A DNA stretch of 7,490 nucleotides from Anaerolineales bacterium (GTDB lineage: Bacteria; Chloroflexota; Anaerolineae; Promineifilales; Promineifilaceae): the NCBI GenBank assembly GCA_020432595.1, contig JAGQGA010000258.1, forward strand, positions 1-7,490, written 5' to 3'. The notes under the pieces were generated by a model. That model saw only the letters and a list, made by a program, of their open reading frames with translations, was not told where the DNA came from and searched no databases. Below, in pieces: positions 570 through 7,108 of this stretch. Position numbers and translations under genes: made by a program. How positions within the stretch are numbered: position 1 is the first letter of the stretch; every line of letters starts with the position of its first letter.

Positions 570-1271
570 ATGCCAAAAAGAGGGCGCAAATATCAGGAAG
601 CAGCCGCTAAGGTTGATAGATCAAGGTTTTATACACGTGAAGAGGCCATCAAACTTATTAAAGAAACGGCCGTTACTAAATTTGACCCCACAGTTGAAGT
701 ACATCTTCGGTTAGGTGTTGATCCCCGCCACGCTGATCAACAGGTTCGTGATGTTGTTGTTTTGCCTAATGGCTTAGGCAAAACAGTGCGTGTGCTGGTT
801 TTTGCTGAAGGTGAAGATGCTGAGGCTGCCCGTGAAGCAGGGGCAGATTACATTGGTGATGATGAAGTCATCAAGCAAATTCAGGGTGGCTGGGTAGATT
901 TTGACGTTGCGATTGCCGTTCCAAGCATGATGGGTAAGGTTGGTCGCCTAGGCCGTATCCTTGGCCCCCGTGGTCTAATGCCTAACCCTCGCGCTGGCAC
1001 AGTTGCGCCGGCAAACCAAATTGCACGACTCATTGAAGAAGCAAAGGCTGGGCGTGTTGAATTCCGCGTTGATCGGACTTCAAACATTCATGCCCCCATT
1101 GGCAAGGCGAGCTTTGGTGAACAACAGTTGTTAGAAAATATGCAGGCTTTGATTGAAGCGATCAAACGTGCTCGTCCATCTGCAGCTAAAGGTCGCTATA
1201 TTCAAAAGATGACTGTAGTCAACACGATGGGACCTGGTATCCGCATGGATGTTACTGAGGCTGCTGGGTAA
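570..1271 (+). CDS. rplA: 50S ribosomal protein L1
   Basis: This 233-residue protein has the usual length of bacterial L1. Domain II contains [17 protein letters not shown]. The family signature runs from about residue 118 to 145 ([20 protein letters not shown], then PNPRAGTV). The C-terminal part of domain I shows [18 protein letters not shown], a conserved RNA-contacting segment. L1 forms the mobile stalk near the E site, helps release deacylated tRNA, and is the repressor of its own operon. The ATG at 570 has AAGGAG at 558-563 with a 6-base gap, and the family N-terminus (PKRGRKY) begins directly. A 75-base spacer after rplK holds the predicted L1 target. One AACGGCCGTT repeat lies in the variable segment near residue 33 and encodes ETAV. 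Confidence 0.98.
665..674. repeat. AACGGCCGTT palindrome, copy 1 (in rplA)
   Basis: Perfect 10-bp palindrome inside rplA, read in frame as GAA-ACG-GCC-GTT (ETAV), in a part of L1 that varies between species. Confidence 0.8.
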
Positions 1272-1306
1272 TTGCTTATCGAGATTGTTTGAAAACTGTA
1301 TAGCGA

Positions 1307-1376
1307 CTTGAAAGAAAATTTTTCTGCTCAAGACAGTTGGTAGCGAATCTATTCGCTTTAAAATACCAGCCGAGGT
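1307..1376 (+). promoter_or_regulatory. L10 ribosomal protein leader (L10-binding domain)
   Basis: The core matches the known L10 leader family. AAGACAG (1330-1336) precedes a helix of TTGGTA (1337-1342) with TACCAG (1364-1369), capped by the small hairpin GCGA/TCGC (1343-1346 with 1353-1356), and followed by CCGAGGT (1370-1376). The AAGACAG...CCGAGG pair is the conserved kink-turn-like part that the L10(L12)4 complex recognises. An upstream helix CTTGA/TCAAG (1307-1311 with 1328-1332) may frame it. Free L10-L12 complex would bind here and reduce expression of rplJ-rplL. In Bacillus subtilis this works by transcription attenuation, and the terminator downstream fits that mode. Confidence 0.85.
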
Positions 1377-1462
1377 AGGATTTTTCGCAAATAAAGCACA
1401 GACAATTGTTCTTGTGTTTTACTTACTTAAAAAAGTAAGTTTTCATTTGTTTGCAAAATCCT
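1377..1462 (+). promoter_or_regulatory. Antiterminator helix with internal hairpins in the rplJ leader
   Basis: AGGATTTT (1377-1384) can pair with AAAATCCT (1455-1462), and GCAAATAAA (1387-1395) with TTTGTTTGC (1446-1454, one G-U). Together they form a 17-bp helix interrupted only by a 2-base bulge (1385-1386). Inside it sit a hairpin CACA/TGTG (1397-1400 with 1413-1416) and a perfect 8-bp hairpin ACTTACTT/AAGTAAGT (1421-1428 with 1433-1440), so the whole is a three-way junction. The 3' strand uses bases 1455-1462, which are also the 5' arm of the terminator, so the two folds exclude each other. The 5' strand starts directly after the L10-binding motif. All pairings are read from sequence; the switch is inferred. 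Confidence 0.72.
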
Positions 1463-1487
1463 CATGCTGGCTGCATGAGGATTTTTT
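1455..1487 (+). terminator. Intrinsic terminator / attenuator before rplJ
   Basis: ATCCTCATGC (1458-1467), loop TGGCT, and GCATGAGGAT (1473-1482) form a perfect 10-bp stem, extendable by A-U pairs to 13, followed by a run of T to 1487. It lies only 14 bases before the rplJ Shine-Dalgarno, so it must be regulated or leaky: an attenuator rather than the end of an operon. Partial readthrough would also set the rplJL level relative to rplKA. Confidence 0.9.
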
Positions 1488-1516
1488 ATTTAAACCTGAA
1501 AAGGAGGTAAAGCACA

Positions 1517-2062
1517 TTGGCTATTTCAAGAGCACGTAAAGAAGAGCTTGTACAACAGTACATGGATTTGATTGATGAAAGCCAAGCGATTTTTATTGCT
1601 GAATATGGTGGCATGAATGTGAAATCGCTCGAAGGGCTACGGCAAAAAGCTCGTGAGGCAAATGGTGCTGTTTTTGTTACCAAAAACACGCTATTGGCTT
1701 ATGCACTGCGTGAGAAGAACCGCCCCGTCCCAGAAGAATTACTGGTTGGGCAAGTTGCTGCCGGTTTTGCAACGGGCGAAGTTCCGACTTTAGCAAAAGC
1801 GTTGACGGAATATGCCAAAGGTGAGGCCAATCTAAAGATCAAGGGGGGTATTCTAAACCAGAATATCTTGAACCCAGCGCAAGTAGAGGCGTTGGCAGAT
1901 TTGCCACCGTTGGATCACTTGCGGGCGCAGATTCTTGGCCTTATCAACGCCCCTGCCCAGAATATTGCTGGGGTTATTGCGGGTGGCGTCCGTCAGATTG
2001 TGAACGTGCTGGATGCTTATGCAAAGAAAGCAGACAGCGATGCTGCGGCTGAAGCCGCTTAG
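1517..2062 (+). CDS. rplJ: 50S ribosomal protein L10
   Basis: The 181-residue product begins MAISRARKEELVQQYMDLI and has the L10 core GLRQKAREANGAVFVTKNTLLAYAL (about residues 40-64), which binds 23S rRNA at the stalk base. The C-terminal helix (VLDAYAKK onward) is the docking site for L7/L12 dimers, and the protein ends in an Ala-rich tail. L10 carries the L7/L12 stalk and, as the L10(L12)4 complex, represses its own operon. Translation starts at TTG (1517): a near-perfect AAGGAGGT at 1501-1508 lies 8 bases upstream, and the family N-terminus follows at once. A strong RBS with a TTG start after a regulated terminator suggests control mostly at transcription. The 245-base upstream spacer is filled by the L10 leader. 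Confidence 0.97.
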   Translation: MAISRARKEELVQQYMDLIDESQAIFIAEYGGMNVKSLEGLRQKAREANGAVFVTKNTLLAYALREKNRPVPEELLVGQVAAGFATGEVPTLAKALTEYAKGEANLKIKGGILNQNILNPAQVEALADLPPLDHLRAQILGLINAPAQNIAGVIAGGVRQIVNVLDAYAKKADSDAAAEAA

Positions 2063-2075
2063 GTTGTTAATATGT

Positions 2076-2097
2076 ATGACATGATTCATGATGTCAT
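2076..2097 (+). other. Hairpin in the rplJ-rplL spacer
   Basis: ATGACAT (2076-2082) and ATGTCAT (2091-2097) form a 7-bp stem with an 8-base loop. No U-tract follows. It may be a processing or stability element helping to raise L7/L12 (needed in several copies per ribosome) relative to L10. That role is inferred; only the pairing is seen. Confidence 0.4.
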
Positions 2098-2136
2098 GGC
2101 GAGAAATTTTGAATTTACATTTGGAGGAAATTAAAA

Positions 2137-2523
2137 ATGGCCGATCTGGATAAAATTGTCGAAGAACTGAGCAAGCTAACCCTTTTGGAAGCAGCCGAGT
2201 TGACAAAGAAGTTGGAAGAAGCTTGGGGTGTAAGTGCAGCTGCCCCTGTAGCTATGGGCATGATGCCAATGGGTGGCGCTGGTGCTGCTGCTCCTGTGGA
2301 AGAGGAAGAAGAACAGACTGAATTCACTGTGATTCTAAAAGATGTTGGGCCGAAGAAGATCAACGTGATCAAGGAAGTTCGGGCATTGACTAACTTGGGT
2401 CTGCGTGAAGCAAAAGAAGTCGTTGATAACCTGGGCACACTGATGGAAGGTGTGAGTAAGGAAGCCGCAGCAGAAGCCAAAGCCAAATTGGAAGAAGCTG
2501 GTGCTGTAGTTGAGGTAAAATAA
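2137..2523 (+). CDS. rplL: 50S ribosomal protein L7/L12
   Basis: This 128-residue protein shows the standard three parts. The N-terminal dimerisation helices include [20 protein letters not shown]. The flexible hinge is rich in Ala, Gly and Met with an EEEEE run (about residues 44-62). The C-terminal factor-binding domain begins [21 protein letters not shown] and ends [14 protein letters not shown]7/L12 forms the multi-copy stalk that recruits and stimulates the translational GTPases. The ATG at 2137 is preceded by GGAGG at 2123-2127. The 74-base gap after rplJ contains only a small hairpin, so the two are co-transcribed. A strong terminator follows within 25 bases of the stop; rpoB, the usual next gene in many bacteria, is not here. 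Confidence 0.98.
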
Positions 2524-2545
2524 CATTTCTTGCTTTGAGATGTGG

Positions 2546-2582
2546 ACAAAAGGTCAGCTTGGCTGGCCTTTTGTTGTTTTTT
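2546..2582 (+). terminator. Strong intrinsic terminator after rplL
   Basis: ACAAAAGGTCAGC (2546-2558), loop TTG, and GCTGGCCTTTTGT (2562-2574) form a 13-bp stem with a single T-G pair, followed by TGTTTTTT to 2582. This closes the ribosomal protein operon. The last T of the tract is the base before the ATG of the next gene. Confidence 0.93.
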
Positions 2583-3248
2583 ATGCCAAATTTTGTGCTT
2601 GGATCACAATCGCCACGGCGAAAGACGCTGTTTGGACTGTTAGGTGTGCCGTTTGAGGTGCGGGTAGCGGACGTGAATGAGGAAAGTGTGACGCACCCTG
2701 AACCAGCAGTGAATGTGGTAGAAACGGCCGTTTTAAAAACCACCGCCCTTACCCACACCATCCCCTCTGCTGACCACACGATTCTCATTACCGCTGATAC
2801 AACCGTTGCCTTGGGCAAAATCATGCTAGGAAAACCCAAAAACGCTCATGAAGCAAGAGCCATGCTGTTGGCACTGCGCGACCGTACACATGAAGTCCAT
2901 ACCGGTCTGGTTTTGTTAGACAACCAGTCAGGCGAAATGCTGCGCTTTGTAAACAGTTCAATGGTCACAATGCGCTACTATAGCGATGCCGAAATTGAAG
3001 CTTACATTGCCACTGGTGATCCTTTGGACAAAGCGGGTGCCTATGCTATTCAGCATCCGGCATTTCGCCCCGTTTCTCGTTTAGATGGCTGCTTCACAGG
3101 CGTGATGGGGCTATCGGTTTGCCAACTCATTCAGGCGTTTCGGCAGTGGCAGCTACCGCATCAGGTGGACTTAACGGCCGTTTCCCACGCCCACGCTAAC
3201 TACCCCTGCCCTCTTCTCTCCACCCTAACCACTTCATCATCCCGTTAG
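2583..3248 (+). CDS. maf: Maf-family nucleoside triphosphate pyrophosphatase
   Basis: With the ATG at 2583 the product has 222 residues and starts MPNFVLGSQSPRRKTLF, the family N-terminus with the SxSPRR nucleotide-binding motif (residues 8-13). Further motifs are ITADTTV with the probable catalytic Asp72, GKPKNAHEARAMLLALRDRTHEVHTG, and DKAGAYAIQ from about residue 149, then SRLDGCFTGVMGLSV. Maf proteins hydrolyse dTTP/UTP or modified nucleotides to monophosphates and are thought to clean the nucleotide pool or slow division; the substrate cannot be chosen here. A longer frame opens at 2535, but its extra residues are the translated terminator hairpin, so 2583 is preferred. No Shine-Dalgarno is visible. 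The last 25 or so residues (Ser/Thr-rich, ending LTTSSSR) lie beyond the family core. Two AACGGCCGTT repeats fall in this gene. Confidence 0.93.
   Translation: MPNFVLGSQSPRRKTLFGLLGVPFEVRVADVNEESVTHPEPAVNVVETAVLKTTALTHTIPSADHTILITADTTVALGKIMLGKPKNAHEARAMLLALRDRTHEVHTGLVLLDNQSGEMLRFVNSSMVTMRYYSDAEIEAYIATGDPLDKAGAYAIQHPAFRPVSRLDGCFTGVMGLSVCQLIQAFRQWQLPHQVDLTAVSHAHANYPCPLLSTLTTSSSR
2723..2732. repeat. AACGGCCGTT palindrome, copy 2 (in maf)
   Basis: Perfect palindrome extending to AAACGGCCGTTT (2722-2733). Read in frame as ETAV between the SPRR and ADTT motifs of Maf. Confidence 0.8.
3173..3182. repeat. AACGGCCGTT palindrome, copy 3 (in maf)
   Basis: Second copy in maf, read in frame as LTAV, located in the non-conserved C-terminal tail. 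Confidence 0.8.
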
Positions 3249-3260
3249 AAACAGCATATC

Positions 3261-3290
3261 TTTGACAAAAGAATTCGTTATTTTGCCAAA
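3261..3290. promoter_or_regulatory. 30-bp inverted repeat upstream of the TPR gene (operator candidate)
   Basis: TTTGACAAAA (3261-3270) and TTTTGCCAAA (3281-3290) are inverted copies matching at 9 of 10 positions, separated by 10 bp. The size and symmetry suit a dimeric regulator, and the right arm lies just upstream of a candidate extended -10 box. As RNA it could also end maf transcripts, but no U-tract follows, which weakens that reading. Confidence 0.45.
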
Positions 3291-3294
3291 GGCA

Positions 3295-3303
3295 TGTTAC
3301 AAT
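3295..3303 (+). promoter_or_regulatory. Candidate extended -10 promoter for the TPR gene
   Basis: TGTTACAAT fits an extended -10 (TGnTAnAAT) with one mismatch to TATAAT. No good -35 sits 16-18 bases upstream, which is tolerated for extended -10 promoters. Start of transcription would fall near 3310, giving a 5' UTR of about 50 bases with a usable RBS (AGAGGA, 3348-3353). Confidence 0.45.
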
Positions 3304-3359
3304 GTTTGACATAACCAACACTCCTAAACTTTTTAGCGCAAAAAAGTAGAGGAAAGTAC

Positions 3360-4202
3360 ATGAACGTAAAATTACAACAGGCGATTGGAGCCGCACGGGC
3401 TGGTGAATCGCAAAAAGCCCAGGTATTGCTGGCACAAATTTTAAAAGAAGACACCAGAAATGTTCACGCTTGGTTTCTGCTTAGCCACTTAGTGGAAAGC
3501 AAAGAAAAAAAGGTGGCATTTTTGCAAAAAGTGCTGGATATTGACCCTAACCATCAAAAGGCCAAAGAACGGTTAGCAGAGTTGGCATCGCCAGAGGCGG
3601 CTGCAGCAGTACAGGAAGTGGCTCCAGTGGTGGAAGACGTGATTGAGGCAGAAGAAACGGCCGTTGTTGCGCCTCCTGAACCAGAAGAACAACCAACCCC
3701 CGTCATTTTTACCGAGCCGGCCGCAGACGAGCTTTTCTCAACTGATGACGACGACGATCTATTTGACGATGATGATGATCTGCCGGCCTGGTTATCCGCA
3801 GATGATGAGAGCATTCTAACCCCAGAAGCATTGGCCGCCGAAGCCCTACCCGATTTTTCTGATTCTGTCGATCCTGATGATCTACCCGATTGGCTAACCA
3901 AAACCAATATTGATGATTGGACGGCAACAAAACCCTGGGAACAGGCAGAAGATCTGCTTGACGATTTAGATACCTTTGAAGAAGAGGAAGAAGAAGAAAT
4001 TATTAAGGAACCCGTGCCCGTTAAATCAGTCATTGATGTGGCGCGTGAGCTGCAAGAGCCTGACCCGCCGCCGCTAGTGCCAGACAAATTGCCAGCAGCG
4101 AAAAACGACTCTTGGCTTAACCGCGTTTTAATCTTCCTCATTGTGGTTGCGGCCGTGGTCTTAATTTTGCTCCTTTACATCGTGATTAATTCCTTTGGCT
4201 AA
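3360..4202 (+). CDS. Tail-anchored TPR protein with acidic LPxWL region, unknown role
   Basis: I do not recognise a named gene. The 280-residue product has three parts. Residues 1-75 are two TPR-like helix pairs (AARAGESQKAQVLLAQILKE, then AWFLLSHL and FLQKVLDIDPNHQKAKERLAEL), normally a protein-binding scaffold. Residues 76-255 are low-complexity, very acidic and Pro-rich, with two DDDDDL runs and two LPxWL motifs (LPAWL 141-145, LPDWL 175-179). Residues 256-277 are one strong hydrophobic helix at the very C-terminus, with no N-terminal signal. This predicts a tail-anchored membrane protein with its TPR and acidic arm in the cytoplasm. ATG 3360 has AGAGGA 6 bases upstream. The next gene is a membrane-anchored PP2C phosphatase, so a shared signalling role at the membrane is possible but unproven. 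Confidence 0.85.
   Translation: MNVKLQQAIGAARAGESQKAQVLLAQILKEDTRNVHAWFLLSHLVESKEKKVAFLQKVLDIDPNHQKAKERLAELASPEAAAAVQEVAPVVEDVIEAEETAVVAPPEPEEQPTPVIFTEPAADELFSTDDDDDLFDDDDDLPAWLSADDESILTPEALAAEALPDFSDSVDPDDLPDWLTKTNIDDWTATKPWEQAEDLLDDLDTFEEEEEEEIIKEPVPVKSVIDVARELQEPDPPPLVPDKLPAAKNDSWLNRVLIFLIVVAAVVLILLLYIVINSFG
3656..3665. repeat. AACGGCCGTT palindrome, copy 4 (in the TPR gene)
   Basis: Read in frame as ETAV at the start of the disordered acidic region. Confidence 0.8.
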
Positions 4203-4238
4203 TAACCGCACAATTTGTAGAAGATTGGTTAAAATGTC

Positions 4239-4267
4239 TTGCCCTCTGCCTCGTTCCCGTATATATT
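4239..4267 (+). promoter_or_regulatory. Candidate promoter for the PP2C gene
   Basis: TTGCCC (4239-4244) and TATATT (4262-4267) are separated by 17 bp and resemble -35 and -10 boxes. Transcription would start about 7 bases after the -10, near 4274-4275, which is the A of the chosen ATG. The TTG at 4239 is in frame with the gene and could be mistaken for an upstream start, but here it is read as part of the -35. Confidence 0.42.
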
Positions 4268-4274
4268 TTCCGCT

Positions 4275-5171
4275 ATGGGTATAAACGAGCGCATCAACGT
4301 CTCGCTACAAACCGACCAAGGATTGGTTCGTGATCATAACGAAGATTTCGTCACTTGTTGGGAACCTCAGAATGATGGGGAAGCCACAAAGCACGGATGG
4401 CTTTATATTGTTGCCGACGGCGTTGGTGGTGCCGATGCTGGCGAGGTTGCCAGCCAATTCGCCAGCGAGCGTGTTATTGCCCATTATTTAGCCAACAGCG
4501 AAACAAAAGACTGGGGACGCCGCCTCATTAACGCTATGCAGTCTGCCAATACTGATTTGCGCCAAATGGTGATGGAGCGCAATGAAAACAAGCGTATGGC
4601 AACCACCATGGTAGCGGCTGTCATTCAGGGAAAACAGGTGCTCATTGGTAATGTGGGGGATAGCCGAGGGTATCATTGGCACAACGGCCGTTTACGCCAA
4701 ATCACCAAAGACCAAAGCCTTGTTGCCAAGCTGGTTGAAGAAGGCGCTATTTCCGAGGCGGAAGCAGTAAATCATCCGCATAAAAACGTCATTCTCTACA
4801 GCATCGGCTCCGAACGCTCACCCAAAATGGATCTTTTTCGGGTGAATATTCAACCCGACGACGCGATTATTCTATGTTCTGACGGGCTAACCCGTCACGT
4901 TTCAGACGAAGAAATCGGCCGCGTGCTTGAAAATGAACCGCCGGCCGAAGCTGCCACCCGACTCATAGATATGGCAAATAGTCGAGGCGGACAAGATAAT
5001 ATTTCCGTTGGGATTTTACGATTTTCAACCCAACCAGAGGAAGAGGGTAAAACGGCCGTTTTAGCCACCACCGCTCCAACCAGCCAAACCACCCTACTGC
5101 TCTACACCTTCCTCTTATCCATCGTGCAAACCATCCTCATTCTACTTGTTTGGTTCTGGTTGCGCGTTTAA
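4275..5171 (+). CDS. PP2C-family Ser/Thr protein phosphatase, membrane-anchored
   Basis: From ATG 4275 the protein has 298 residues. The PP2C motifs appear in order: GLVRDHNED (16-24), VADGVGG with Asp48, MATTMVAA, NVGDSRGY with Asp129, CSDGLTRHVSDEE with Asp203, and GGQDNIS with Asp241. The metal-binding aspartates are all present, so it should be an active Mn/Mg-dependent phosphatase that reverses Hanks-type kinase phosphorylation. After a short linker the last 27 residues (from TTLLLYTFLLS) form a C-terminal transmembrane helix, leaving the catalytic domain in the cytoplasm. No cognate kinase is in the window. The frame extends to TTG 4239, but the ATG fits the family start better. No Shine-Dalgarno is visible before either; a leaderless mRNA is possible. 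It follows the tail-anchored TPR gene by 72 bases. Confidence 0.93.
   Translation: MGINERINVSLQTDQGLVRDHNEDFVTCWEPQNDGEATKHGWLYIVADGVGGADAGEVASQFASERVIAHYLANSETKDWGRRLINAMQSANTDLRQMVMERNENKRMATTMVAAVIQGKQVLIGNVGDSRGYHWHNGRLRQITKDQSLVAKLVEEGAISEAEAVNHPHKNVILYSIGSERSPKMDLFRVNIQPDDAIILCSDGLTRHVSDEEIGRVLENEPPAEAATRLIDMANSRGGQDNISVGILRFSTQPEEEGKTAVLATTAPTSQTTLLLYTFLLSIVQTILILLVWFWLRV
4683..4692. repeat. AACGGCCGTT palindrome, copy 5 (in the PP2C gene)
   Basis: Read in another codon phase from copies 1-4, as AAC-GGC-CGT (NGR), in the loop after the GDSR motif. Confidence 0.8.
5051..5060. repeat. AACGGCCGTT palindrome, copy 6 (in the PP2C gene)
   Basis: The longest copy: the palindrome extends to TAAAACGGCCGTTTTA (5048-5063, 16 bp perfect). 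Read in frame as KTAVL in the linker between the catalytic domain and the membrane helix. Confidence 0.82.
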
Positions 5172-5182
5172 ACGAAACGTAT

Positions 5183-5222
5183 GTGGCATCTCAGAGCGAG
5201 GCCACTTATTTTTAAATTTTTT
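5183..5222 (+). terminator. Probable intrinsic terminator after the PP2C gene
   Basis: GTGGC (5183-5187) pairs with GCCAC (5201-5205); inside, CTC (5190-5192) pairs with GAG (5198-5200) beside a 2-base bulge. A T-rich stretch, TTATTTTTAAATTTTTT, follows to 5222. It would separate the TPR-PP2C unit from rnj. Confidence 0.62.
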
Positions 5223-5301
5223 ATAACTAAACCTAAATATGTGAACGGGGGCCTGTCACGACTTACAACCTGACGGCAATCTTTACACAAACACGGATCA
5301 A

Positions 5302-5350
5302 GGCTACCCACAAATCCAATATTTGTTAGCCAGAACAACCTTGTTCGGCT
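5302..5350 (+). promoter_or_regulatory. Structured rnj upstream region with two competing hairpins
   Basis: The stretch 5172-5443 has no gene. After the terminator it contains hairpin A: GGCTA (5302-5306) with TAGCC (5327-5331), then ACAAAT (5310-5315) with ATTTGT (5321-5326), 11 bp with a 3-base bulge. Hairpin B is AGCC (5328-5331) with GGCT (5347-5350), then GAACA (5333-5337) with TGTTC (5342-5346), 9 bp with one bulged A. Bases 5328-5331 are needed by both, so only one can form. A small GGCA/TGCC hairpin (5377-5387) follows. No promoter could be assigned with confidence and no U-tract follows these hairpins. Confidence 0.5.
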
Positions 5351-5424
5351 GTGTTTGCTGTACCACGGTTAGCAGCGGCATTCTGCCAGTTTTGTTAAAC
5401 TTCAGACGTAACGTGTGGCAATCC

Positions 5425-5439
5425 CCGGCTCACCGGAGG
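5425..5439 (+). promoter_or_regulatory. rnj ribosome binding site overlapping a mini-hairpin
   Basis: GGAGG (5435-5439) lies 4 bases before the rnj ATG. CCGG (5425-5428), loop CTCA, CCGG (5433-5436) form a 4-bp GC hairpin that takes in the first two bases of the Shine-Dalgarno. This could weaken initiation; the hairpin is seen, the effect is inferred. Confidence 0.5.
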
Positions 5440-5443
5440 ACAT

Positions 5444-7108
5444 ATGTCATCTAAATTGCGAATTTTACCCCTGGGTGGACTGGGGGAAATCGGCAAAAAC
5501 ATGACCATCTTCGAGTATGAAGATTCCATTCTCATCGTAGACGCTGGTGTCATGTTTCCCGAAAACGACATGTTGGGTGTCGATCTTATCATTCCCGACT
5601 ACAAATATCTGATGGACAAACGCGACAAGGTGCTTGCCGTCCTTGTCACCCACGGCCATGAAGACCATTTAGGCGCACTGCCTCACCTGATGCAAGACAT
5701 TCAGGCACCGATTTACGCCACGCCGCTTACGGCTGGCTTAATCGAAGCCAAATTGCGTCGCTCTAAGCTGCCCCACGACATTGAGCTGGTTGTATTTAAT
5801 GCTGGGGACGTACTAGACTTTGGCCCCTTTACCGTTGAGCCGTTCCACGTCACTCACAGTATTCCCGACGGCGTTGGCTTTGGCATCACCACCCCCGTGG
5901 GTCTTATTGTCCACACGGGTGATTACAAATTTGACCATACTCCCGTGGACGAATGGCCGCCTGACTTTGCCAAGCTGTCTGAGTTTTCCATGCGCGGTGT
6001 TCTGGCGCTGCTGGCCGATAGCACTAACGCTGACCGCCCCGGCTGGACTCCTTCAGAAAAAATTGTGGGCGAGGGGCTGGAAAAGGTGTTTCAAGAAGCC
6101 CCTGGGCGCATCATCATCGCCACCTTTGCTTCGCTCATCTCGCGCATTCATTTGGTGGCCGATGCGGCGGTGAAATATGGGCGGCGACTGGCAATTACCG
6201 GCCGTTCCATGCGCGACAACACCAAAATCGCCAGCAAGCTCGGCTATCTCGACATCCCCGACGACCTGTTGATTGACATCAGCGAGGCCGATAACTACCC
6301 GGCTAATCAGGTTGTTATCATGGCAACCGGGGCGCAGGGTGAACCATCTGCCGTTTTGGGTCGCCTGGCACGGGGCCGCCACCAGCGATTCAGCATCAAA
6401 GAGGGAGATACGGTTGTCTTTTCCGCTCATACTATTCCGGGCAACGAAGAGATGGTGCATCGTACCATCAATCAGCTTTTTCAGCGCGGTGCCAACGTGC
6501 TATACGAGCAGGTGGCCGATGTTCACGTCTCTGGTCATGCCAGCCAGGAAGAAATGAAGCTCCTTATTAACCTGGTGCGCCCGCAGTTTCTCATCCCTGT
6601 CCACGGCGAACTGCGCCACTTGCGGCAACATGCCAAGTTAGCCAAAGAAATCGGGTTTCCAGAAAACAACATTGCTGTCATCGAAAACGGCACGCCCGTT
6701 GAGCTGGATGAAATTAGCATGACAGTGCTACCCCGCTTGCCCGGAGGATATGTCTTTGTGGATGGCTCTGGCGTAGGCGACATTGGCTGGCCGGTGATGC
6801 GTGAACGGGAAAAGCTGGCCAACAATGGCTTTTTCATGGCAGTGGCCGTCACCAATGGACAGGGGAATGTGTTAGGCAAACCCAATTTTGTCACCCAGGG
6901 CATGGTTGACCGCAAAGAAGCAGAAGAGCTGTTTATTGGGGCGGAAGATACCATTGCTCGCGTTGTGAAAAACAGTGTTGGAGCCAAAGAAAAGATTGAA
7001 AACAGGCTGGAAGATGCGGTCAGCCGCTATTTGTATGCAGAAACGGGCAAACGGCCGTTTGTCCGCATCATCGTCAATCAAGTTATTGGCGAACCTGTGG
7101 CTGCCTAA
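5444..7108 (+). CDS. rnj: Ribonuclease J (5'-exonuclease / endonuclease)
   Basis: This 554-residue protein has the usual length of RNase J. The metallo-beta-lactamase core shows LPLGGLGEIGKNM (8-20), VTHGHEDHLGAL with His70, His72, Asp74 and His75, His138 in FHVTHS, Asp160 in HTGDYKFD, DSTNADRPG, the beta-CASP segment with GRSMRDN and MATGAQGEP, HVSGHASQEEMK (His361, His365), and His387 in PVHGELRHL. All zinc ligands seem present. The C-terminal domain (RKEAEELF onward) assists dimerisation. RNase J matures rRNA and degrades mRNA from the 5' end, replacing RNase E-centred decay in many lineages. ATG 5444 has GGAGG 4 bases upstream. It stands apart from its neighbours: a terminator and long leader precede it, and a long hairpin follows. 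Codons are more C-ending than in the ribosomal genes. Confidence 0.97.
   Translation: MSSKLRILPLGGLGEIGKNMTIFEYEDSILIVDAGVMFPENDMLGVDLIIPDYKYLMDKRDKVLAVLVTHGHEDHLGALPHLMQDIQAPIYATPLTAGLIEAKLRRSKLPHDIELVVFNAGDVLDFGPFTVEPFHVTHSIPDGVGFGITTPVGLIVHTGDYKFDHTPVDEWPPDFAKLSEFSMRGVLALLADSTNADRPGWTPSEKIVGEGLEKVFQEAPGRIIIATFASLISRIHLVADAAVKYGRRLAITGRSMRDNTKIASKLGYLDIPDDLLIDISEADNYPANQVVIMATGAQGEPSAVLGRLARGRHQRFSIKEGDTVVFSAHTIPGNEEMVHRTINQLFQRGANVLYEQVADVHVSGHASQEEMKLLINLVRPQFLIPVHGELRHLRQHAKLAKEIGFPENNIAVIENGTPVELDEISMTVLPRLPGGYVFVDGSGVGDIGWPVMREREKLANNGFFMAVAVTNGQGNVLGKPNFVTQGMVDRKEAEELFIGAEDTIARVVKNSVGAKEKIENRLEDAVSRYLYAETGKRPFVRIIVNQVIGEPVAA
7050..7059. repeat. AACGGCCGTT palindrome, copy 7 (in rnj)
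   Basis: Extends to CAAACGGCCGTTTG (7048-7061). Read in the third codon phase, as KRPF, near the C-terminus of RNase J. Confidence 0.8.

Follow-up and report, generated by a model that had tools for sequence, protein, structure and literature searches.

Among described systems, the closest to the element reported here are the highly iterated palindromes (HIPs) of cyanobacteria, HIP1 (GCGATCGC) and the alternates found in some relatives: octameric palindromes lying inside and outside genes at roughly 1-2 per kb, whose one-mismatch forms (one-offs) fall at outer positions in several genomes and are rare in the centre (parts of PMC4390886). Elhai and colleagues, citing unpublished work, state that octamers of such frequency occur in very few bacterial genomes (a passage of PMC3497702). 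We examined a stretch of 7,490 nucleotides from an Anaerolineales bacterium of the Chloroflexota (GenBank assembly GCA_020432595.1, contig JAGQGA010000258.1), called the window throughout, in which a first-pass annotation had pointed to seven perfect copies of a 10-bp palindrome, AACGGCCGTT, and likened it to HIP1. All seven copies are exact, against a mean of 0.01 expected from 200 dinucleotide shuffles, none of which reached seven; a one-mismatch search of the window yields a single further match, ACCGGCCGTT at 6197. The word is a real, clade-wide HIP-type palindrome with a CGGCCG core and an outer pair that depends on lineage (A..T in this clade, and either T..A, G..C or free in its sister), and its sites are flanked by a mirror-image G/C skew. 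The palindrome shares with HIP1 a same-sign context of G to the left and C to the right within about 12 bp; it differs from HIP1 proper, with its GATC/CGATCG core and cyanobacterial host, in its Chloroflexota hosts, in a core without GATC, and in having nearly exclusive versions set apart by the outer pair. Among the papers listed in searches of the open-licence literature, none describes such a palindrome in Chloroflexota, by which novelty is not proven; a HIP-type palindrome in this phylum with an unexplained site-anchored strand asymmetry is apparently new, being new to the searches made.

Other systems offer partial parallels. The DNA uptake sequences (DUS) of Neisseriaceae and the uptake signal sequences (USS) of Pasteurellaceae are directional, non-palindromic words, which competent species recognise through a pilin-type receptor. 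Chi sites, like the Chloroflexota palindrome short over-represented recognition words, are tied to recombination and differ from it in being oriented and non-palindromic. The GATC sites of E. coli, which serve Dam/MutH mismatch repair, are likewise palindromic and are used in strand discrimination, and in MutH/Dam bacteria the endonuclease motif of MutL is broken.

Abundance, lineage versions and conservation in place

Whole-genome counts in 38 relatives give 361-5060 copies of AACGGCCGTT in 23 carriers, 0-51 in 12 non-carriers, and 7, 20 and 83 in three variant genomes, the grouping being assigned by the analysis itself. Because the outermost A..T pair around ACGGCCGT, common in some relatives (80/100 in G003), is largely free in others, the functional unit is better called the octamer ACGGCCGT than the 10-mer. 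Across 298 genomes of the class this octamer exceeds 5,000 copies in 8, reaches 1,189-2,982 in 3 and stays at or below 646 in the remaining 287, with the highest counts in G023 (15,031 in 7.2 Mb), G025 (13,708 in 6.9 Mb) and G022 (10,726 in 5.5 Mb), a density in the range of the HIP1 class (about 500-2500 per Mb genome-wide). The version TCGGCCGA is found 7,668 times in G028 and at most 1,326 times in every other genome of that sample. When palindromic octamers are ranked in 81 sequences (80 relative loci and the window), ACGGCCGT comes first in 25, one of which (L056) has only 3 copies, and TCGGCCGA and GCGGCCGC come first in 2 each. Most carriers have about 1-2 sites per kb. The spacing is near-random (coefficient of variation 0.94), and the longest site-free gap is 3.1 kb in 197 kb of G023 and 5.0 kb in 200 kb of G028. 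Among seven stretches sampled from relatives, the excess over base-composition expectation is 60-87 times in six and 33 times in the other, from G036. The early suggestion of HIP1-like, genome-wide abundance is supported by these counts of hundreds to thousands per genome, and the word proves to be limited to a clade, not to the window.

The outer-base versions rarely mix. G023 has 387 ACGGCCGT vs 4 TCGGCCGA in 197 kb, G028 has 5 vs 308 in 200 kb, and 100 kb of G027 hold 1, 0 and 143 copies of ACGGCCGT, TCGGCCGA and GCGGCCGC, respectively. The outer bases are free in G034, where 73 kb contain 406 CGGCCG and 82% of all GGCC lie inside CGGCCG. A separate observation is that GCCGGC is nearly absent both in G034, which has the CGGCCG version (2 in 73 kb; L267-L270 and L034), and in G027, which has the GCGGCCGC version (1 in 100 kb; L196-L200).

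An RNase J tree of 49 rows places the window inside an A-type clade (support 95/95) that comprises 23 A rows (22 loci besides the window), six word-free Promineifilum-type rows and G036; the sister group (support 90/90) holds the other outer-base versions, and L014, L037 and L032, which are without the word, branch outside both groups. The palindrome is not present in the Promineifilum genomes. The simplest reading, though not a proven one, is a single origin of the CGGCCG core with later outer-base switches and one loss. Conversion of A-type into T-type sites in place was rejected: of 70 A-type places one carries the T-word, and of 101 T-type places one carries the A-word, both counts including redundant pairs. 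G036 carries a thinned set of 65 sites in 136 kb with an excess of half-matched outer forms (ratio of observed to expected one-offs, O/E, 4.2 and 6.3 at the outer positions), and this genome is possibly in the process of losing or relaxing the system. The half-matched forms in its loci (L247-L258 and L036) are ACGGCCGA and TCGGCCGT.

The cause of the sites lies in the DNA. With open reading frames called by our own script, the sites of G023 fall into codon phases as 220/96/48 with 20 noncoding (2.06 per kb coding, 0.98 per kb noncoding), and those of G028 as 153/68/47 with 40 noncoding (1.50 and 1.92 per kb); this use of several phases together with intergenic copies, a feature of the HIP1 class, excludes a protein-level cause. 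Peptide forcing tracks the version of the motif. Thr-Ala-Val (TAV) is seen 222 times in G023 vs 29.4 expected, 219 of them spelled with the word, and stands at background in G028 (28 vs 27.7 expected), where SAE/SAD take its place: Ser-Ala-Glu (SAE) is seen 121 times vs 18.5 expected, 112 of them spelled TCGGCCGA. The window's copies lie in five genes and read TAV five times, NGR once and KRPF once, just as the first-pass annotation had it, and its contention that selection on protein cannot explain them holds in view of these three phases and the intergenic copies of relatives.

Sites also persist in place. Over 17 locus pairs, in which genomes overlap between pairs and shared sites, like the controls, are counted from both sides, 556 of 640 site instances are identical. 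At 92% DNA identity 36 of 38 instances are unchanged vs 55% of composition-matched 8-mers, at 80% identity 38 of 49 vs 30%, and at 76% identity 48 of 54 vs 20%; the alignment check proposed at the outset comes out far above matched words in 15 of the 17 pairs, the exception being G036, whose two pairs keep 0 of 6 instances. In nine locus pairs 260 sites are common to both members and 73 are not.

One-mismatch neighbours, whose count had also been proposed, are close to expectation overall, with a total one-off O/E of 0.68-2.05 in seven stretches of relatives (1.20 in G023, 1.59 in G026, 1.56 in G009, 0.68 in G003, 1.03 in G028, 0.97 in G027 and 2.05 in G036); the same analysis gives 1.80 and 2.76 for HIP1 in cyanobacterial plasmids. 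At inner positions O/E ranges from 0.12 to 2.09 and is mostly <1.3 in the six stretches with totals of 0.68-1.59. In G023, outer positions 1 and 8 reach 2.18 and 2.30, and central positions 4 and 5 stand at 0.25 and 0.49. Such a bias of one-offs outward, away from the centre, which marks the HIP1 class, is seen in G023, G026 and G009, is confined to one side in G028, and is not clear in G003 and G027.

Mirror-image GC skew around the sites

On the top strand, G exceeds C to the left of sites and C exceeds G to the right. The folded skew at fourfold degenerate positions in G023 is +0.60 at 9-12 bp, +0.39 at 13-20 bp, +0.26 at 21-40 bp, +0.08 to +0.09 at 41-160 bp and +0.04 at 161-500 bp; G028 resembles it from 9 bp outward, the fourfold skew being absent there at 3-8 bp. 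At 9-40 bp the fourfold reversal is 0.330 (interval 0.292 to 0.369) in G023, 0.302 in G026, 0.250 in G009, 0.216 in G017, 0.183 in G003, 0.279 in G028, 0.285 in G027 and 0.101 in G034. All 24 bootstrap intervals for these eight genomes (at 9-40, 41-160 and 161-320 bp) lie above 0, and 22 of 24 intervals at random control positions include 0, with slight exceptions at 41-160 bp (G023 +0.032, G028 -0.024). Other GGCC places (1,482 and 630) give a folded skew of at most +0.08 beyond 2 bp, and 917 other palindromes give about none to 40 bp. Directly beside the site, at 1-2 bp, six genomes (G023, G028, G027, G026, G003 and G017) show the opposite sign, and G009 does not. The folded 3-40 bp flanks of the window's own sites contain 193 G vs 83 C.

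Known sites behave differently or weakly by the same measure. E. coli GATC gives +0.020 (-0.014 to 0.053) at 9-40 bp (694 sites, 150 kb) and no such skew beyond 4 bp, and GATC in G023 likewise shows none beyond 4 bp. HIP1 in cyanobacterial plasmids (400 kb, 256 HIP1) gives a fourfold skew of +0.081 (0.011 to 0.155) at 9-40 bp; over all positions at 81-160 bp its skew is +0.021 (0.007). Whereas the Chloroflexota reversal reaches 320 bp, the fourfold skew of HIP1 in this plasmid DNA is not significant beyond 40 bp, and, unlike HIP1, most Chloroflexota stretches have the opposite sign at the base pair adjoining the word.

The two sides shift in opposite directions from the contig baseline and roughly equally, unevenly in some bins of G017 and G009; in G003 at 9-20 bp, for example, the baseline is -0.214, the left side -0.011 and the right side -0.450. 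Pooled over G023 and G026 at 9-40 bp, the skew is 0.301 at codon position 3, 0.098 at position 1, 0.050 at position 2 and 0.121 in noncoding DNA, with no clear 10-bp rhythm. The state of the site matters as well: conserved sites have +0.378 at 3-8 bp and +0.187 at 9-20 bp, and polymorphic sites have +0.203 and +0.058 where present and +0.116 and -0.022 where absent. A comparison of carriers with non-carriers includes redundant pairs and a regional offset at 41-80 bp and is not relied on.

Several familiar processes were tried against this pattern and rejected. From 321-500 bp to 21-40 bp, C falls from 0.377 to 0.292, G rises from 0.393 to 0.475, and A and T stand at 0.115 and 0.115 vs 0.125 and 0.108; C is replaced by G and T does not rise, which tells against cytosine deamination in exposed single strands. 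A mutation hot zone at the sites is contradicted by a fourfold substitution rate that is flat with distance from them (0.83-1.04), a transcription-linked process by the mirroring of upstream and downstream flanks in gene sense, and a lagging-strand or primer-junction process by the departure of both sides from each contig's own skew, which is a stand-in for fork direction and is informative mainly in G003 and G028. Selection for an extended hairpin or RNA stem was rejected on the flanks of G023, which are not complementary beyond composition (20 offsets); in G028 complementarity appears at offset 1 (z 3.2) and weakly at offsets 8 and 12. The reversal thus weighs against simple explanations by codon use, hairpins, the lagging strand or cytosine deamination. 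As a footprint that can be measured and that every explanation must produce, it makes models testable.

Sites and genes of the window

The positions of the seven copies, including the 16-bp symmetric extension that had been reported around one of them, are collected in Table 1; the sites are found again at the same places in homologues, at listed protein identities of 33-77%. The window carries rplK, rplA, rplJ, rplL, maf, genes for a TPR-like protein, a PP2C phosphatase and RNase J, and the start of an AraC-type regulator. A ribosomal protein L10 leader RNA (RF00557, 59.4 bits) at 1309-1497 precedes rplJ, whose start is apparently TTG. The RNase J is at most 73% identical, near full length, to proteins from metagenome-assembled genomes (MAGs) of uncultured Anaerolineae/Chloroflexi, and 76% identical to one partial sequence.

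Table 1. Copies of AACGGCCGTT in the window and their recurrence among homologous loci, which are partly redundant and include non-carriers.
Copy	Position	Gene	Codon phase	Loci with the site in the same place
1	665..674	rplA (ribosomal protein L1)	TAV	1/7
2	2723..2732	maf	TAV	2/8
3	3173..3182	maf, near C-terminus	TAV	8/10 (47-63% protein identity)
4	3656..3665	TPR-like protein (weak domain matches), acidic region	TAV	2/6 (3 gaps)
5	4683..4692	PP2C phosphatase	NGR	11/41
6	core 5051-5060 in a 16-bp perfect palindrome, 5048..5063	PP2C gene, C-terminal part	TAV	13/38; 5 more within 15 nt
7	7050..7059	RNase J, near C-terminus	KRPF	17/78

Candidate machinery and competing explanations

For this HIP of a Chloroflexota (Anaerolineae/Ardenticatenia-type) clade, the reading that we favour, tentatively and at rather less than even probability, is that each site is the start point of a DNA-processing system. 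In this mechanism, which we infer, a sequence-specific system, either repair directed by nicks or cuts or an entry route for recombination, would recognise the palindrome and set out from it, replacing or exchanging DNA outward on both sides regardless of gene direction and contig skew. The skew would be the trace of this outward activity, and sites would be kept perfect by the benefit (or drive) of having one within about 1 kb. A concrete route from C to G without a gain of T or extra substitutions could be heteroduplex exchange from the site with fixed strand polarity, since mismatch repair is poor at C:C. In its behaviour the palindrome is like cyanobacterial HIP1, though in another phylum. 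The first-pass annotation had named repair among its guesses; the skew reversal, which it had not seen, favours a role in repair or recombination without proving it.

Another of its guesses, a dedicated methyltransferase, did not fare as well, and profile searches with PF00145, PF01555 and PF02086 found no single enzyme shared by the carriers. PF00145 (m5C family) is present in 12 of 23 A-type carriers, 1 of 12 non-carriers and all four variant genomes. PF01555 (N4/N6 family) matches all 23 carriers at E <= 0.001, and in five the match is weak, as in some non-carriers (G030 9.5e-10, G009 4.3e-8, G018 1.8e-5, G036 6.2e-5, G026 4.6e-4). PF02086 (Dam-type) is matched strongly (E below 1e-50) in all four variant genomes and in 20 of the 23 carriers, but 4 of the 12 non-carriers have such a match as well. 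By family these strong matches are probably GATC enzymes: a domain scan assigned all 10 scanned proteins (from 35 PF02086-type proteins read out) to the Dam family, and one such protein, compared with solved structures, closely matches E. coli-type Dam. These Chloroflexota genomes commonly carry Dam-family methyltransferases, which belong to more than one subgroup (L141-L160, L181-L188). A phosphorothioation (dnd) target was rejected, dndC (TIGR03183) lying over the cut-off in only 4 of 41 genomes and reaching E <= 0.001 in 10 of 41.

Repair and uptake genes are common: non-carriers included, the MutL C-terminal domain is found in 37 of 41 genomes, MutS in 35 and ComEC in 38. The MutL endonuclease motifs (DQHAxxExxxxE and CPHGRP) are intact in 27 of the 37 sequences read, one is truncated, and nine are broken (G008, G009, G011, G018, G021 and G023-G026; L166 and L312-L319), with substitutions at the H or first E of the former and at the C of CPHGRP. 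These nine genomes, eight of which have MutS, all belong to one carrier subclade; in its tenth member, G022, no MutL was matched. The broken motif asks for another nicking activity there. The broken motif of this subclade and the common Dam homologues resemble the E. coli system, from which the carriers differ in that MutH was not found; E. coli GATC differs in lacking the reversal beyond 4 bp.

Several results weigh against a start-point system of this kind. No modification family tested gives a strong match in every carrier, another point of difference from HIP1, and MutH (PF02976) was found in 0 of 41 genomes, the E. coli positive control being the only match, so that a Dam/MutH-type methyl-directed mismatch-repair site, which calls for a MutH-like nicking enzyme, was rejected. 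The MutL motif is intact in most carriers and in the word-free Promineifilum genomes. E. coli GATC, although a genuine nick site of mismatch repair, has no flanking skew beyond 4 bp, and ordinary mismatch-repair excision is therefore insufficient as the sole cause. The flat substitution rate, the restriction of the age contrast in skew to within 40 bp and the weak skew of G036 point the same way, and the reader protein of the palindrome remains a putative element of the proposal. Gene absences are soft, because the completeness of the MAGs is not established.

The alternative that survives best, which we consider unlikely, is the methyltransferase-linked HIP of Elhai's model, in which CGGCCG or GGCC is the target of an orphan methyltransferase and sites are ratcheted up to about one per kb as a side effect of methyl-directed mismatch repair. 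HIP1-like density, an outer-base bias of one-offs whose deviation is smallest at the centre, and the existence of alternates in relatives would all follow (parts of PMC4390886), and the strong Dam-family matches (20 of the 23 carriers, all 4 variant genomes) and the broken MutL motif of nine carrier genomes would fit; but the m5C and N4/N6 families, dndC and MutH are distributed as described above, the outer base varies without a G-methyl-C rationale, and GATC in G023 lacks the skew beyond 4 bp.

Rather improbable is a word for DNA uptake or self-recognition, driven and conserved by preferential uptake and recombination. Like DUS and USS, the palindrome combines high density with lineage dialects around a fixed core (parts of PMC3630211); it affects the proteome, and ComEC is nearly universal. 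ComEC is however present in non-carriers too, and a perfect palindrome is undirected. One-mismatch forms of DUS and USS are graded upward, with a representation of 2.0 for H. influenzae and 4.8 for N. gonorrhoeae (parts of PMC1939737), whereas here there is little inner excess and the totals are 0.68-1.59 in six stretches and 2.05 in G036, a rough comparison since word lengths differ.

An architectural site, bound about every 500 bp by an abundant nucleoid or topology protein, with selection keeping sites and favouring purine-left flanks, seems to us quite improbable. Dense coverage, orientation-free symmetry and outer bases explicable by a co-evolving binder suit it; near-random spacing does not, nor does a skew that follows lack of constraint (codon position 3 > 1 > 2), extends beyond 160 bp and has no clear helical periodicity. 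Finally, chance, codon usage or protein-level selection, for which one could cite the five TAV readings in the window, retains virtually no probability and was rejected on the window shuffles, the excess in relatives, the three phases and intergenic copies, the conservation above matched words, and peptide forcing that follows the motif, with TAV at background in G028.

Taken further, the start-point reading leads to a proposal that is possible but doubtful: the roughly ten thousand fixed palindromes per genome may serve as entry points for a hitherto undescribed DNA transaction that does not depend on the direction of replication and transcription, spreads outward with fixed strand polarity and biases the base that is retained (C to G). 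Each site would imprint a mirror-image skew that strengthens with site age, and outer-base specificity would have switched between lineages. In the one carrier subclade where MutL seems to have lost its nicking function, such a transaction may provide it, and cyanobacterial HIP1 may be a second, independent case. HIP1 is an open puzzle of cyanobacteria, and the Chloroflexota palindrome provides an independent HIP in another phylum at similar density, a DNA word shown to rewrite proteins on a genome scale, and, in relatives with three outer-base versions or none, a comparative system.

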